NCBI RefSeq assembly: GCF_009834785.1
Contig: NZ_WUYX01000019.1
Span: forward strand, 1-64,000
Length of the DNA stretch: 64,000 nt
Direction: 5' to 3'
From: Natronorubrum halalkaliphilum
GTDB lineage: Archaea > Halobacteriota > Halobacteria > Halobacteriales > Natrialbaceae
Both the position numbers and the translations under genes were made by a program. How positions within the stretch are numbered: the first letter of the stretch is position 1; every line of letters begins with the position of its first letter. The notes under the pieces were generated by a model. It did no database searches, was not told where the DNA came from, and worked only from the letters and a program-made list of their open reading frames with translations. Shown here in pieces: positions 48,278-55,186 of the stretch.

Positions 48278-48286
48278 CCTTAAATG
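48278..48286 (+). promoter_or_regulatory. TATA box of rps19e
   Basis: CCTTAAATG centred 27 bp before ATG 48310, which supports that start over the upstream frame. Confidence 0.6.
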
Positions 48287-48309
48287 CCGCGGACGGAAAC
48301 CACACGCCA

Positions 48310-48765
48310 ATGGCTACGATGTACGACGTTCCGGCGGACGACCTCATCGAGGCGCTCGCCGACGATCTCGAGGAGCGACTCGACGAGCCCGACTGGGGCA
48401 AGTTCGTAAAGACCGGTGTCGACCGAGAGCTTCCGCCCGAACAGGAAGACTTCTGGGCGACCCGCGCCGCAAGTCTCCTGCGCAAGGTCGCCGACCGCGG
48501 CCCGATCGGCGTCGAACGACTCTCGACAGAGTACGGCGGCGCGAAGGACGGTTCGAACCGCTACCAGGTCGCTCCCGACAAGCGAACCGACGGCTCGAAG
48601 AACCTGATCCGTACCATCCTCCAGCAGCTCGAAGAGGAGGACCTCGTCGAAACCGCGGAGGGTGAAGGTCGCCGCATCACGCCTGCCGGCCGAAGCCTGC
48701 TCGACGACACTGCCGGTGCCGTCCTTGAGGAGCTCGACCGCCCGGAACTCGAACGCTACGCGTAG
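48310..48765 (+). CDS. rps19e: Ribosomal protein S19e
   Basis: A 151-residue archaeal/eukaryotic small-subunit protein. The winged-helix core with DWGKFVKTGVDRELPPEQEDFWATRAASLLRKV is diagnostic, with the wing region RYQVAPDKR and GSKNLIRTILQQLE. Needed for small-subunit maturation. The start at ATG 48310 agrees with a TATA box 27 bp upstream. The PDCD5-type gene follows about 105 bp later on the same strand. Confidence 0.97.
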   Translation: MATMYDVPADDLIEALADDLEERLDEPDWGKFVKTGVDRELPPEQEDFWATRAASLLRKVADRGPIGVERLSTEYGGAKDGSNRYQVAPDKRTDGSKNLIRTILQQLEEEDLVETAEGEGRRITPAGRSLLDDTAGAVLEELDRPELERYA

Positions 48766-48870
48766 ACGATCGAAACCAGTTTCCTGCCGAAACGACACTC
48801 GAGCGCCGCCAGTAGCATCGCCTGTCGTCCGTAATCATTTTCCGCCATGCGAACCAATACGTCGATAGCT

Positions 48871-49218
48871 ATGAGTGGCTCACCTGACGAGGAAAAACTT
48901 GAGGAGCTCCGACAGAAGAAAATGGAGCAGTTACAGGAACAGGCCGGCCAACAGGGCGACGGCTCGCAGGAGGCGGCCCAGCAACAGGCCGAAGCCCAGA
49001 AGAAGGCCGTGTTGCGCCAACACCTGACCGACGATGCCCGCAAACGGCTCAACACCGTCAAGATGAGCAAACCCCAGTTCGGTGAGCAAGTCGAACGGCA
49101 GGTCGTCACGCTGGCCCGCAGCGGGCGCATCCAGGGCAAAATCGACGACGAAAAGATGAAACAACTCCTTCAGGAGCTGAAACCCGACTCACAGAGCTTC
49201 GACATCAAGCGTCGCTGA
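48871..49218 (+). CDS. DNA-binding protein, PDCD5 family
   Basis: A 115-residue helical protein of the archaeal PDCD5/TFAR19 family. The helical N-terminus [18 protein letters not shown] and the conserved [30 protein letters not shown] with the terminal LLQELKP are typical. Gene order S19e-PDCD5 is conserved in archaea. The stop overlaps the next ATG by one base, so the PP-loop gene is translationally coupled. Confidence 0.92.
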
Positions 49219-49808
49219 TGGAGCTCGGAGTGCTCTACAGCGGCGGCAAGGACTCGACGCTCGCAGCCCTTCTCCTCGAGGAGTTCTACGACGTCACGCT
49301 CGTCACGGCCCAGTTCGGCATCAGTGACGACTGGAAACACGCCCGCGAGACCGCTACCGCCGCCGGCTTCGCGTTCGAGCGCCTCGAGCTGGATTCGGCC
49401 GTCGCCCGGGAGGCCGTCGACCAGATCCGTGACGACGGCTTTCCGCGCAACGGGATACAACAGATACACCAGCACGCCCTCGAGCGACTGGCGGAACAGG
49501 AGTTCGACGCGATCGCCGACGGTACGCGGCGTGACGACCGCGTCCCGACTATTTCGCGGGCGCAGGCCCAGAGCCTCGAGGATCGCCACGATGTCGATTA
49601 CATCGCACCCCTGTCGGGCTTTGGCCGTACCGCCGTCGACCGGCTCGTCGAAGCGCGCCTCGAGGTGACCGTCGGACCGAGCGAGGAGATCGACCGAGCC
49701 GATTACGAGGCGGAACTCCGAGCCATCATTGCCGACGAAGACGGCCCCGAAGCCGTTTCGAAGCTGTTTCCGGATCACGAGCAGACGTACGTGACCGGCG
49801 TTCGGTAG
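49218..49808 (+). CDS. PP-loop ATPase, DUF7411 type
   Basis: A 196-residue N-type ATP pyrophosphatase. The PP-loop YSGGKDSTLA is at residue 7. The second region has DAIADGTRRDDRVPTISRAQAQSLEDR, typical of the haloarchaeal DUF7411 group related to diphthine ammonia ligase and tRNA-thiolation enzymes. An AMP-activated intermediate is expected; the substrate (protein or tRNA) is not established. The ATG at 49218 overlaps the upstream stop. Confidence 0.85.
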   Translation: MELGVLYSGGKDSTLAALLLEEFYDVTLVTAQFGISDDWKHARETATAAGFAFERLELDSAVAREAVDQIRDDGFPRNGIQQIHQHALERLAEQEFDAIADGTRRDDRVPTISRAQAQSLEDRHDVDYIAPLSGFGRTAVDRLVEARLEVTVGPSEEIDRADYEAELRAIIADEDGPEAVSKLFPDHEQTYVTGVR

Positions 49809-49865: not shown

Positions 49866-50423
49866 TCAGCGCGCCGTCGTCTCGAGCGCCGCCACGCGAT
49901 AGCCGTCAACGGCGAGCGTAACGGTGACCGAATCACCCGCGTCGATCCCGGGATCGTTCGTTTCGGCAACGGTGAAACCGACCTGCTCTCCGACTCGCCA
50001 CTCGGGGTCCGCCTCCGCGTTGAACGCGCCCCTCGGCGCTCCGTCGAATCCGGTCGCGCCGACGAACGGTACGGGCGGTTGTGCCGCCAACGGGTCGTCG
50101 TTTACCGCGACCGTCACGGACAGTTCCTCGACGTCGATCCGATCACCGGCGACGTGTTCGATGGTGATCTCTGAGGTCCCGCTATCGGCCGTCAGGTCGA
50201 ACGCTGCAGTCGGGCCGCCGGACTCGAGTGTCAGCGTACTCGCACCGACGGCGACGATCGTCACGAGCAACACCGTGAGGACGATCAGTACGAGAACGCC
50301 GACGACCGGACTGATCGCTCGTCCGTCAGCGTCGACACGGCCGACAGTACCGTGAGCACAACTGGCGGTTTTGCTAGTCGGACAGCGACATCGAGGGCGC
50401 GGTGTACTCGAGCGACTGGACAC
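49866..50423 (-). CDS. Type IV pilin-like protein (haloarchaeal)
   Basis: A 185-residue secreted pilin. GRAISPVVGVLVLIVLTVLLVTIVAVG is the prepilin class III signal: cleavage after Ala by PibD-like peptidase, then a hydrophobic assembly helix. The mature body is a beta-rich domain with Gly/Asp loops. No ATG or GTG lies just before the cleavage site in frame; the only in-frame candidate, GTG 50423, gives an unusually long, Ser/Arg/Cys-rich leader of about 38 residues. A TTG or a sequence error could hide the real start. Confidence 0.75.
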   Translation of the reverse strand: MSSRSSTPRPRCRCPTSKTASCAHGTVGRVDADGRAISPVVGVLVLIVLTVLLVTIVAVGASTLTLESGGPTAAFDLTADSGTSEITIEHVAGDRIDVEELSVTVAVNDDPLAAQPPVPFVGATGFDGAPRGAFNAEADPEWRVGEQVGFTVAETNDPGIDAGDSVTVTLAVDGYRVAALETTAR

Positions 50424-50500: not shown

Positions 50501-51760
50501 TTAGTTACCCGTAATTGTCGCATTGACGGTTCCAGTGCTTGTCTCGGCTCGCAGTTCGTACTCGTCGTTCGGTGGAACGATCCACAGCGTCCCGTCGTCA
50601 GTGTGGCCGACGTCGACTCCGTCGATGGTGATCGTCGCGCCCACGGGTTCGTCCGTTGCCGTATCGTTTACCGTCACTGCCGCTGGTCCGTTTGCCGGCG
50701 TCTGTACGAGTTCGAGCTCGAGTTCGTCCTCGTCGTCGGTCCAGGTTTCGACGCTCTCTTCGGGGAGTGATTCCAGCGAGAGCTCCTGCTCCTCGCGGTA
50801 GACCTCGCCGGTTCCGCCGTCGAGGTGAATCTCGAGGTGGTTCTGATCTACCTCCATCGTCATCCGATAGAGGTTTTCGTTGCCGCTGTCGCGAAAGCCT
50901 GACCAGCCCTGGTCGATGCCTGCCCACGGATAGTGCTCCGCTGCGTGGTCCATCGTTTCGGAATGCGAACTGTCTTCGAACTGGTTCGGTGCCGTGCTCA
51001 CCCGACGGTTATCGAATCGAACCGTCTCTCGCTCGTACATATCGCCGTCAATCATCGAGAGACTGTAGCCGTTCTCCGAGGTCTGAATCAGGAGCTCGGT
51101 CTGCTCGCTCGCTCCGCCGGATTGGCTCGCTTGTTCGAGCGTCGATCGAATCGACGTCTGGTGGTATTCGAGGATCGTTCTATCGGCTCGAGTCTGTTGA
51201 CCGACGAGCGAGTAGCCGTCGATCTGATCCGCTCGATCATCGGTTAACACCAGCGCATCGTACAGCTTGGCCGCCTCGTTCTGGTTTCGCAACAGCGTCT
51301 GTATGAGTTCGGTGTCGGTGAGTTCGCCAGCGGCGTGGTCGCGAACCGCCTCACGCTCGCGCTCTTCTAACTGCTCGGTTCGATCTTTGATCTGGTTGTA
51401 TGCCGCTCGGACCATCTCTTCTCGTTCGTCGGCCGAAGCGGTGGCGAACTCGCTGTCGATGAGCGTATACTGCTCGTGATCGACTCGCAGTTCGTCGTCT
51501 ACGCTCGCGAGTGCGAGGCCGATGTCGGTGCCGTACTCGGTGTGTCCGGCTCGATCGGGTTCGAGCGGGAGACGATTTGTCGTTCCATCGGCCTCGGCTG
51601 GCGGTTGTTGAGCAGCGAGCTGGTGGAGGGGAAGGGAGGAGGTGGGGTCGTCGGCTCCCACGTCGTGGGACGTTGGCTCCGGTCCCGCCGCAATAACCGG
51701 CATCGCAAGAAGCGAGGAGACGAGGACCGCAGCGAGGAGGACGGGCGTCGTACGATTCAT
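50501..51760 (-). CDS. Secreted protein, DUF7096/DUF7094-like
   Basis: A 419-residue secreted protein with signal peptide (residues 1-24, MNRTTPVLLAAVLVSSLLAMPVIAA) and no transmembrane helix after it. The middle contains an extended helical stretch (YNQIKDRTEQLEEREREAVRDHA), and a C-terminal carboxypeptidase-regulatory-like beta domain (GATITIDGVDVGHTDDGTLWIVPPN). It is a family kept next to membrane HTH genes in haloarchaea; here the divergent neighbour at 51921 is one. The start agrees with a CTTTTGTATC box upstream. Confidence 0.8.
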   Translation of the reverse strand: MNRTTPVLLAAVLVSSLLAMPVIAAGPEPTSHDVGADDPTSSLPLHQLAAQQPPAEADGTTNRLPLEPDRAGHTEYGTDIGLALASVDDELRVDHEQYTLIDSEFATASADEREEMVRAAYNQIKDRTEQLEEREREAVRDHAAGELTDTELIQTLLRNQNEAAKLYDALVLTDDRADQIDGYSLVGQQTRADRTILEYHQTSIRSTLEQASQSGGASEQTELLIQTSENGYSLSMIDGDMYERETVRFDNRRVSTAPNQFEDSSHSETMDHAAEHYPWAGIDQGWSGFRDSGNENLYRMTMEVDQNHLEIHLDGGTGEVYREEQELSLESLPEESVETWTDDEDELELELVQTPANGPAAVTVNDTATDEPVGATITIDGVDVGHTDDGTLWIVPPNDEYELRAETSTGTVNATITGN

Positions 51761-51890
51761 CGACCGACCGTATGGGCTCCTGATACAAAAGCTGGTCGCA
51801 CCACTCGTGTAGATCTAAATCATCGCAAACAGGCGTGATAGACAAGTCTACAGTCGATGGTAACCGTTTATTTTCCGATGGAAAGGGTTT

Positions 51891-51904
51891 TTTCCCCGGG
51901 GAAA
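51891..51904. promoter_or_regulatory. Palindrome between the divergent secreted protein and membrane HTH genes
   Basis: TTTCCCCGGGGAAA is a perfect 14-bp palindrome. It lies about 20 bp downstream of TTTATTTT (51867-51874), the likely TATA box of the membrane HTH gene, so it would cover that gene's transcription start. Confidence 0.6.
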
Positions 51905-51920
51905 CCACCGATTGGTACGC

Positions 51921-53324
51921 ATGCGGTTATCCACCGCCATTACAATCGCCCTCACAATCCTCCTCGTAACGTCTACCGTGGGGGTGGTGGCAGCCACGCC
52001 GTCAGCGACGGGATCCGCGCCCGACGCTGGGCCGACGGTCGTTGGCGCTGACCAGTCCTCGCTCGAGTCGGCCTCGCTCTCCCCGACGCAAGCGCTCTCT
52101 ACTGCGCCATCATCCTCCTCGCTCGTATCCACGCCCCCAGCATCGCTCTCTCAGGCCGGTACCGATCCGCCGACAGACGCCGATCCACGACAGGTATTCC
52201 GGATCGACATCGACGAAAGCGGAGATGCACACTGGACTATCGAGAGTCGCTTCGTTCTCCACGACGACGACGATATCGACGATTTCGAGCAGTTCGCCAG
52301 CGCCGTCACGGCCGGCGAACGCGACATCGCGATCAACCGTCAACTGTTCGAAGCCCACGCACACGATGCCGCAGATCGGACCGATCGTCACATGTCGATC
52401 GAAAACGCCGGCTGGGACGAGCCGCGCGTCAACCCGGTCGCGGAGGACGACGTTGTCGACGCCGAGACCATCGAAACCGACGACGGCGACGGTGAGACCG
52501 TCCACGTCGGCGTCATCACCTACTCGTTTACGTGGACCAACTTCGCGACCACCGAGAACGACCGAATCTACTTCGGCGATGCCTTTCAGACCGACACCGG
52601 CGTCTGGCTCACGTTAACCGACACGCAACGGCTTATTATCGAGCCGCCGGCGGACTACGCCCTCGAGACGCCGACCCAACTCGACTGGGACGGCCCCTAC
52701 GAGTTCGGCGACGGCGAGCTCGACATCGTCTTCGTCCACAGCGGCGCGACTTCCGGCTTCGATATCTCGAGCTGGATGATCGCTGCCGTCTTCGCGCTCG
52801 TTTTGTTCGTTGGGATCGGCAGCTATCTCCTCGCACGGTGGAAACCGGAGATCGATCTGCCGCAGCCGGTCGATCAACTCGCCGAGCGTGTCTCCCAGCT
52901 CGGACGTACTGGTCTCGGGAACCGACTCCGTTCGCGCGGCGGTACTCGAGGCGAGCAGGAACACGACTCGTCGATGGCGACTGATACCAACGGTGGGTCG
53001 GTGCAACCGGGTGCCGGGCCGACAGCCGTTGGCAACACCGACGCTGCAGACGCCGCAGCCGGAACGCAACTCGAGTTCGAGGAGGAAGTCGACGAGGAGA
53101 TCGATCCCGAACTGCTGAGCGACGAGGAACGGGTCCTCCGGTTGCTCAAACAAAACGGCGGGCGGATGAAGCAGGCCTCGATCGTTACGGAGACCGGCTG
53201 GTCGAACGCCAAAGTCTCGCAACTCCTCTCGCAGATGGACGACGACGACGATATCGAGAAGCTTCGGATCGGCCGTGAAAATCTCATCACGCTCCCCGAA
53301 GTCAATCCGGCCGAGTTCGACTGA
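51921..53324 (+). CDS. Membrane-bound helix-turn-helix transcription factor
   Basis: A 467-residue protein. A signal peptide (1-25) starts the extracellular part (26-275), which has a beta-rich sensor-like domain (QVFRIDIDESGDAHWTIESRF). A single helix SSWMIAAVFALVLFVGIGSYLLARW crosses the membrane. The cytosolic tail ends with a winged helix LSDEERVLRLLKQNGG, then TETGWSNAKVSQLLSQMDDDDDIEKLRIGREN. Sensor outside, membrane helix and DNA-binding tail inside give a one-component signalling protein. The start ATG at 51921 is chosen over a TTG three codons earlier. Confidence 0.88.
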   Translation: MRLSTAITIALTILLVTSTVGVVAATPSATGSAPDAGPTVVGADQSSLESASLSPTQALSTAPSSSSLVSTPPASLSQAGTDPPTDADPRQVFRIDIDESGDAHWTIESRFVLHDDDDIDDFEQFASAVTAGERDIAINRQLFEAHAHDAADRTDRHMSIENAGWDEPRVNPVAEDDVVDAETIETDDGDGETVHVGVITYSFTWTNFATTENDRIYFGDAFQTDTGVWLTLTDTQRLIIEPPADYALETPTQLDWDGPYEFGDGELDIVFVHSGATSGFDISSWMIAAVFALVLFVGIGSYLLARWKPEIDLPQPVDQLAERVSQLGRTGLGNRLRSRGGTRGEQEHDSSMATDTNGGSVQPGAGPTAVGNTDAADAAAGTQLEFEEEVDEEIDPELLSDEERVLRLLKQNGGRMKQASIVTETGWSNAKVSQLLSQMDDDDDIEKLRIGRENLITLPEVNPAEFD

Positions 53325-53573: not shown

Positions 53574-53939
53574 ACTTCAGTCTTGGCGAGTCAGCCACAA
53601 GAACTCATCGTGAAATATCAGTGACGTATCTGCGGTGAGAGGGTCGTTCGTGTTCACCCCGAAATCTCCTTGCGCCCAACCGGTGATACCCGTCCCCTAT
53701 CGGGGTCTGAATCCGTCTCGCGCAAAAATCTCGACCAAAAAGCCGCTCGCTCTCTCCGTTCGCTCGCGGGACAGTCGCTCAGGCCAGCGGCGTCCGTTCG
53801 ACGACCTGACCGTCGTAACTCGGATACTGCGTCGCGACCTTTTTCCGCTCGAGTTCGTTCGCGAGGCTCACTCACTTCTCGCGCAAAAATCTCGACCAAA
53901 AAGCCGCTCGCTCTCTCCGTTCGCTCGCGGGACAGTCGC
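53574..53939. other. Gene-free interval with duplicated 3' end
   Basis: About 365 bp without an independent gene. Positions 53716-53829 are a copy of the 3' end of the radical SAM gene (see repeat), and between the copies is a related T-rich segment (53830-53876). Minus-strand poly-T-containing GGCTTTTTGGTCGAGATTTTTG tracts look like a haloarchaeal transcription-end motif. Confidence 0.6.
53716..53829. repeat. First copy of 114-bp direct repeat
   Basis: Identical over 114 bp to 53877-53990 (offset 161 bp). This copy contains the last codons of the radical SAM gene (the end QVVERTPLA and its stop) plus downstream T-tracts, so it is a detached duplicate. Confidence 0.9.
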
Positions 53940-53990
53940 TCAGGCCAGCGGCGTCCGTTCGACGACCTGACCGTCGTAACTCGGATACTG
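53877..53990. repeat. Second copy of 114-bp direct repeat (gene-linked)
   Basis: Overlaps the last 17 codons of the radical SAM gene. It is the original position from which the 53716 copy appears to be duplicated. Confidence 0.9.
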
Positions 53991-54947
53991 TTCGACGATT
54001 TCGCCCTCCTCGAGATCGCCGGCTTCGATCATCTCCTCTAAGAGCCACCAAGCGACTTCGACGTGATTCGACTTGACCGTGTAGAACTCCTCGGGGACGC
54101 CGAGCGCTTCGAAGCGGTCGGGGTCGGCGTACGTTTTGCCGTAGACGAGCGTACCGTCGTCGGTGACGTCGTCGAACTCGCGACGGACGTTACGGGCCAT
54201 CCGCTTGAGTCGCCGGCGGTGTTGGGCGGCGTCTTTGAACACCGAGGTACAGAAGTAGACCTTCTCGTGGTCGCCCATCACGTCGAGGATTTCGTCGCGG
54301 TCGTTGTCGACGGCGCTCATGTGGTCTTCCTTGAGTTCGAATCCTTCCTCCTGCATTCGACGGTAGTTCCCGTCGCTCATCTCGAACTCGTTGACGTTAC
54401 AGAAGTCGGCAGCGCCTTCGTCCAGGAACTCGAGGAACTCTTCTTCGGCTCGAATCCCCGGAATCTCGAACGCGGGCGTGAGTCCTTCGTCGCGAGCGAT
54501 GTAGAGGATTTCCTCCCACTCGGTGCCGTGGAGGTCGCCCCACTGTTCGTACGGTGGGTGGAATCGAATTTCGTCGAGGCCGGCCTCGGAGAGACGGCGC
54601 ATGTTCTCGCGGCCGCCGGTAATGCCGGTGTAGAGGTGCGTGTGATGGTCTTCACCGAACTCGTCTTTGAGCAGGGAGAGGTAGTTACAGGTCCGCTCGA
54701 GAGCCTCTTGTGGCTCGCCGCCGGTGATCGAGGTCCCGAGTGCGTCCATTCGGCGGGCTTCCGTAAGGACGTCCTCGTCGCTCTCGACGCGTCGCTCGTT
54801 AGCGTAGACGTCGGTCACGTTCTTGCGGTTCTCACCGAGCGGGCAGTAAAAGCAGTCACGCTGGTCGCAGTATCCGTAGACGAACAGCACCATCTTGCCA
54901 CCTTTCGCGCACTGCTCACAGCCCTTCGAGATCATTCGAGGGAACAT
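53940..54947 (-). CDS. Radical SAM protein
   Basis: A 335-residue radical SAM protein. The cluster motif is CDQRDCFYC (about 32-40): Cys-x4-Cys-x2-Cys, an unusual spacing against the common Cx3CxxC. A GGEP-like ITGGEPQEALE follows, as does the conserved barrel with DEIRFHPP. Pair CEQCAKGGK precedes the core and could add metal ligands. Relatives are archaeal proteins similar to pyruvate formate-lyase activating enzymes; the reaction is unknown. The start is ATG 54947, since GTG 54962 has no homology. A CTTTTGTGG box lies upstream. Confidence 0.88.
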   Translation of the reverse strand: MFPRMISKGCEQCAKGGKMVLFVYGYCDQRDCFYCPLGENRKNVTDVYANERRVESDEDVLTEARRMDALGTSITGGEPQEALERTCNYLSLLKDEFGEDHHTHLYTGITGGRENMRRLSEAGLDEIRFHPPYEQWGDLHGTEWEEILYIARDEGLTPAFEIPGIRAEEEFLEFLDEGAADFCNVNEFEMSDGNYRRMQEEGFELKEDHMSAVDNDRDEILDVMGDHEKVYFCTSVFKDAAQHRRRLKRMARNVRREFDDVTDDGTLVYGKTYADPDRFEALGVPEEFYTVKSNHVEVAWWLLEEMIEAGDLEEGEIVEQYPSYDGQVVERTPLA

Positions 54948-55186
54948 ACTGGGCGGATCCACAAAAGACGTGCGAAACGCATTTGGGGCGTGTGGCGTGT
55001 GCTACCGTCACTGGTCGTGCGTCGTACGGGCGATATCGACTCCGTCACCGACCCGTTCGCCGCCACCCTCATCCACACTCGTGGAGTGACCCTGCGCGGT
55101 GTGGAGTAACGGTCGGGTTCTCGTCGAGCCGCTGAATTCTGTCGTCCCCAGAAGATGGAAATACCCCGCGGCCGAACGTTCGATCG

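Follow-up and report, generated by a model that had tools for sequence, protein, structure and literature searches.

SEC and REG, an exported protein and a transmembrane regulator encoded divergently on either side of a 160-bp gap, form a genuine gene pair of known kind, very well conserved and almost always back to back in haloarchaea. With moderate confidence, we regard the pair as the core of a haloarchaea-wide envelope module in which REG would act as a transmembrane one-component regulator of the divergent SEC–pilin operon. The gap also holds a perfect palindrome, which looks like an incidental, local accident at the edge of REG's own promoter. The features lie as follows in the window (the whole stretch of DNA analyzed, 64,000 nucleotides), with the two reading frames and their gap where a preliminary description of the sequence had placed them.

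49866–50423, minus strand: pilin-like gene (Pilin_N) downstream of SEC, start codon uncertain (Pfam; neighbor survey)
50501–51760, minus strand: SEC, exported DUF7096-DUF7094-Fn3_arc protein, 419 aa, with Sec-type signal peptide (Pfam, hydropathy, model pLDDT 88)
51784–51790, minus strand: TATA-like TTTTGTA of SEC, 24–30 nt before the SEC ATG (sequence; same position in relatives)
51855–51875, plus strand: upstream member of a 21-nt direct repeat, containing TTTATTTT at 51867–51874, a possible second TATA box (repeat search)
51878–51891, plus strand: ATGGAAAGGGTTTT, REG's conserved BRE/TATA-like element, 43 nt ahead of the REG ATG (conservation in relatives; DRG control)
51891–51904, no strand: TTTCCCCGGGGAAA palindrome, lineage-limited (sequence; comparison with relatives)
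51921–53324, plus strand: REG, transmembrane regulator, 467 aa (Pfam, hydropathy, model)
52200–52658, plus strand: REG DUF7345 ectodomain, residues 94–246 (Pfam; high pLDDT)
52770–52841, plus strand: REG membrane helix, residues 284–307 (model, hydropathy)
53112–53297, plus strand: REG DUF7343 winged helix, residues 398–459 (Pfam, model, structure comparison)

Domain assignments, hydropathy, and structure models bear out the earlier reading of SEC as a signal-peptide protein and of REG as a one-component regulator with its sensor outside the cell and its winged helix inside. SEC has one N-terminal hydrophobic stretch and no second one, and matches to DUF7096, DUF7094, and Fn3_arc span the whole protein. 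The hydrophobic stretches of REG lie at the N-terminus and at residues 276–308, the latter followed by R and K. Its structure model (mean pLDDT 75, from 49 sequences) contains a confident ectodomain, a helix at residues 284–307, and a winged helix, with a disordered linker (residues 332–389) between membrane helix and winged helix. In structure comparison, the winged helix scores Z of about 10 against MarR/ArsR-type and Z-alpha winged helices. Comparison with PDB folds gave no convincing match for SEC or for the DUF7345 ectodomain, the latter's list being filled by the winged helix so that the ectodomain was barely probed; the absence of a match does not argue for a new fold in either case. 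Three REG paralogues in the window's own genome share both the DUF7345 and the DUF7343 domain, and no SEC-like neighbor was seen in the short stretches read around them. A literature search found no paper on DUF7343, DUF7345, DUF7096, DUF7094, or Fn3_arc.

Several known systems resemble this architecture. ToxR/CadC-type regulators are likewise one-component proteins with the DNA-binding domain inside and the sensor outside, but they combine an N-terminal cytoplasmic winged helix with a C-terminal external sensor, whereas in REG the sensor is N-terminal and the winged helix C-terminal by Pfam and model. Transmembrane transcription regulators, a widespread class censused in bacteria and archaea, join a predicted membrane segment and a DNA-binding domain in one protein (PMC10269533); REG has at least one such segment (hydropathy, residues 276–308; model helix, 284–307) and a predicted DNA-binding domain in its DUF7343 winged helix. 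The census counts archaeal examples, and the DUF7345–DUF7343 combination is absent from the passages of it that were available (PMC10269533). ArnR and ArnR1 of Sulfolobales are archaeal, membrane-bound, and one-component like REG, and are described in the available text as regulating surface-structure genes, with the helix-turn-helix on the N-terminal side rather than C-terminal behind an ectodomain as in REG (PMC13286277, PMC4858521). arCOG00381, likened here by its description in excerpts of the source, is a haloarchaeal membrane-bound regulator near pilin genes (PMC4858521). Two further proteins in the literature are of other kinds: CsmR, a small Lrp/AsnC-type protein of a different family from REG (PMC13286277), and HVO_A0307, an Lrp-type regulator that is distinct from the exported protein (PMC6801745).

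From locus numbering and from the synteny seen in Haloferax larsenii, rather than from sequence, we take HVO_0306/HVO_0307 of Haloferax volcanii to be the probable REG/SEC. In the accessible part of a glycoproteomic source, HVO_0307 is an N-glycoprotein and HVO_0306, a "Probable transmembrane glycoprotein/HTH domain protein," is an O-glycopeptide candidate; HVO_1944, which bears the same description as HVO_0306, and HVO_1945 are both N-glycosylated (PMC8241124). In both couples the tags are adjacent, with a TM/HTH protein next to an exported glycoprotein; so far as that source covers it, glycosylation of the TM/HTH proteins supports an ectodomain outside the cell (PMC8241124).

The gene-neighborhood survey that the preliminary description had suggested as a check found SEC and REG rarely apart; the pairing therefore withstands the refutation that the description had set for it, frequent occurrence of either gene alone. 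Across the family Natrialbaceae, DUF7096 is present in 117/121 genomes and REG-like matches at E ≤ 1e-20 occur in 120/121; among the 117 genomes with both matches listed, the best SEC and REG matches are adjacent and divergent in 114. This set leaves out G027 and G100 (weak, unlisted REG matches) and G072 (no REG match). Two exceptions have the genes on different contigs (G002, G079), and one has them about 678 kb apart on one contig (G014); this split pair, with both genes retained, counts against a circuit based on the pairing. A set of named loci, collected from haloarchaea at large by their REG matches and comprising the best 80 of 238 relatives, has SEC adjoining REG in 74/80 by tblastn and 78/80 by profile, the two loci without it being a contig edge (L117) and a truncated REG (L113). 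The Halostagnicola genome of the latter (L113/L258, G079:C16) has a REG match without the first 142 residues and SEC on other contigs; this REG is a decaying or relocated copy.

Conservation extends to the neighbors. Among the same best 80 of 238, the pilin-like gene follows SEC in 70 loci (45/48 in Natrialbaceae, 25/32 elsewhere), and etfA stands on the far side of REG in 31 of the 32 loci outside Natrialbaceae, so an ancient gene order may account for part of the adjacency. In four loci read by ORF, two from Natrialbaceae and two not, A-ATPase subunit I stands beyond SEC, and three of the four also have a methyltransferase there (by eye; the L070 copy confirmed by Pfam). In the window, the pilin–SEC–REG block is intact, and its flanking genes are unlike those of relatives' loci. 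Beyond the pilin-like gene, at 48283–49808, lie S19e, PDCD5-like, and DUF7411 genes that are missing from this place in all 80 named loci (best 80 of 238); a rearrangement breakpoint adjoins the block on this side.

Judged by sequence conservation, SEC and REG have separate promoters, with SEC's at the far side of the gap. In most of the relatives compared, TTTTTGTA or a similar stretch stands about 24–30 nt before the SEC ATG. Before REG, the pattern AT[AG][AG]AAA[AG]N[AG]TTTT occurs in 55/55 distinct gap sequences and in 78 of the 80 named loci (best 80 of 238 relatives), with a chance expectation of ~2e-4 in an 800-base stretch if equal base use is assumed. These two counts are unbiased; in the larger set of 110 distinct upstream sequences, the added loci (L244–L260) entered only with the element found, so that its presence in all 110 is partly by construction. 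Upstream counts leave out L113 and L117, and the added set leaves out L256 and L258 (in each case a truncated REG or one at the end of a contig), as well as L255 (SEC only). The element stands 39–44 nt before the REG start codon in relatives, one mis-chosen start aside (L026, distance 25, in the 110-sequence set). When the pair is split, in G014, each gene keeps its own signal: REG retains ATGGAAAGTGTTTTTTCCCC and SEC retains TTTTTGTA.

The surroundings of the element differ by lineage. In Natrialbaceae, the stretch from element to REG ATG is also conserved, as is a TTTTAT stretch about 21 bp upstream that is weak elsewhere; outside the family, little is conserved beyond the element, and the pattern itself fixes some of its columns. 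In the window, a 21-nt direct repeat (51855–51896, 71% alike) supplies another BRE/TATA-like copy, two helical turns upstream of REG's element, possibly a candidate for tandem promoters or paired binding sites. Another repeat, at 53707–53999, includes part of the 3′ end of a radical-SAM gene (53940–54962, minus strand); by eye, about 100 of its bases recur little changed near 53720–53820 and 53885–53985.

Across 146 genomes of the order, the exact form ATGGAAAGNGTTTT occurs at 60 sites, against none for the reversed control. Forty-eight precede REG: 29 outside the family (with a DUF7345 match no more than 1 kb away), 18 in the family (by coordinates), and L162, another SEC–REG pair. L162 was one of 13 sites inspected individually, and the remaining 12 of these precede a DRG-type GTPase gene. 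Occurrence before only two kinds of gene makes ATGGAAAGNGTTTT more selective than one would expect of a plain basal promoter. Within the window's own genome, GAAAGNGTTTTTNS with at most one mismatch is found 21 times, against 9 for the reversed control, and 7 of the 21 sites stand 35–40 nt before an ATG opening a frame of at least 60 aa.

The DRG-type gene (L150–L161, L193–L222; in the window's own genome, G000:C57 near 10862) carries GAAAGNGTTTTT about 38–41 nt before its start. Among 30 DRG loci of the order, a [CG]GAAAG-like stretch and a T-run are common at this place, with some departures. In matched Natrialbaceae, mean information at −44 to −27 is 1.42 bits for DRG (14 sequences) vs. 1.13 for REG (17 sequences), and at −26 to −1 it is 0.89 vs. 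0.83; three DRG loci missed by the start pattern are absent from this comparison. The conservation between element and REG ATG in Natrialbaceae, in itself a point against the module with a plain core promoter, has its counterpart at the DRG gene. DRG and REG may possibly share a promoter class or a regulator.

Since a near-identical element stands at the matching position before this housekeeping GTPase gene, the one before REG is probably REG's own BRE/TATA basal promoter and not a private operator. Haloarchaeal promoters are given in the available part of one study as BRE CGAAA and TATA TTWT, with 72% of Haloferax protein-coding transcripts leaderless (PMC4983044). The REG element has this arrangement, a CGAAA-like BRE followed by a TTWT-type TATA, as far as that account goes (PMC4983044); it reads GGAAA then TTTT in most sequences, with G or A, not C, as the first base. 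A REG-private operator at ATGGAAAG... first looked strong and was weakened by the DRG control and by further genes that carry the element equally far from their starts.

The preliminary description had placed the palindrome at REG's transcription start and proposed it as an operator of both genes, a proposal we now consider very improbable. TTTCCCCGGGGAAA is indeed a perfect dyad at 51891–51904 and occurs nowhere else in its own genome, and 37 of the 78 distinct upstream sequences from Natrialbaceae contain TTTCCCNNGGGAAA; beyond its existence, the claim that it is above chance or shared is not borne out. The window holds 24 perfect 14-mer palindromes where base composition predicts 6.6 (0.015 for one such gap), a richness that advises caution with other palindrome findings in this genome. 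Of the 110 distinct upstream sequences, TTTCCCCGGGGAAA is perfect in 7/78 from Natrialbaceae and 0/32 from elsewhere, and TTTCCCNNGGGAAA is likewise found in 0/32 of the others. Symmetry, which a dyad operator should keep among relatives, is not maintained: in 37 distinct ungapped rows there is no two-sided compensatory change, every departure in the six outer pairs is a non-pair, and the central pair shows mostly non-pairs, its single two-sided change being G-G, which does not pair. Where the gap is widened to about 350 bp in relatives, the palindrome-like arms remain beside REG. The palindrome sits on the REG core promoter, with the SEC promoter separate. It coincides with the transcription start only on the assumption that TTTATTTT serves as TATA box; the element at 51878–51891, conserved throughout haloarchaea, would put the start near the ATG.

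Other roles for the element and the gene order fare variously. That the element marks an upstream reading frame (ATGGAAAG...) is scarcely credible: it begins with ATG in most relatives, but ATA replaces ATG in 9/78 Natrialbaceae and 4/32 other distinct sequences, and in-frame stops occur in some (L045, L112; read by eye), on which grounds this reading was rejected. Self-repression of REG, with the element and the upstream 21-nt repeat as an operator overlapping the TATA box, would suit both the concentration of exact sites before REG (48/60, none for the reversed control) and the two-helical-turn spacing of the repeat; we nevertheless think it unlikely, given that 12/60 sites precede the DRG-type gene at the same distance, that the DRG promoter is equally conserved in matched genomes, and that other genes of the window's own genome have a loose form of the element at this distance. 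A further possibility, which we consider rather unlikely, is that REG mainly controls distant genes and owes its place beside SEC to inherited gene order. The wider synteny with etfA and the A-ATPase genes is also old, and SEC has a standard promoter of its own; on the other side, adjacency holds in 114/117 genomes of the family, and pilin, SEC, and REG stay together in the window though the flanks belong to another region.

The usual expectation for such a divergent arrangement is that the regulator controls its neighbor. In the envelope module that we favor, REG is exported via its signal peptide and, as sequence and model show, has DUF7345 outside and the MarR/ArsR-type winged helix inside, with a single membrane helix and a flexible linker connecting the two. 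REG would most likely sense an envelope condition and, from some site within the intergenic region, control the divergent SEC–pilin operon and perhaps its own gene. SEC and REG would be driven by their separate promoters, with the element as REG's BRE/TATA core promoter and the palindrome incidental. This module is consistent with the domains and topology, the conserved divergent pairing, the block kept intact despite altered flanks, and the separate promoters that stay with their genes in G014. It also accords with an element at a fixed 39–44 nt that fits the BRE/TATA signals as published in the portion available (PMC4983044) and recurs before DRG, and with the two so-described Haloferax proteins listed as glycosylated in the part of the source at hand (PMC8241124).

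One extension of this module, a conjecture we consider improbable, is that exported SEC, or the pilin-like product, is itself the signal contacting the REG DUF7345 domain, so that the three genes report the state of the cell surface to a promoter. If true, surface state would reach the promoter without a cytoplasmic relay, and the second Haloferax neighbor pair, HVO_1944/HVO_1945, a TM/HTH protein and an exported glycoprotein as described in the available part of its source, would make this a recurrent design. Recognizing the palindrome as incidental and the element as a probable basal promoter spares a misdirected binding study. As REG accompanies one and the same exported protein throughout haloarchaea, the genetically tractable Haloferax volcanii apparently among them, the pair offers a good system for archaeal surface sensing and for how a membrane-tethered factor reaches DNA.
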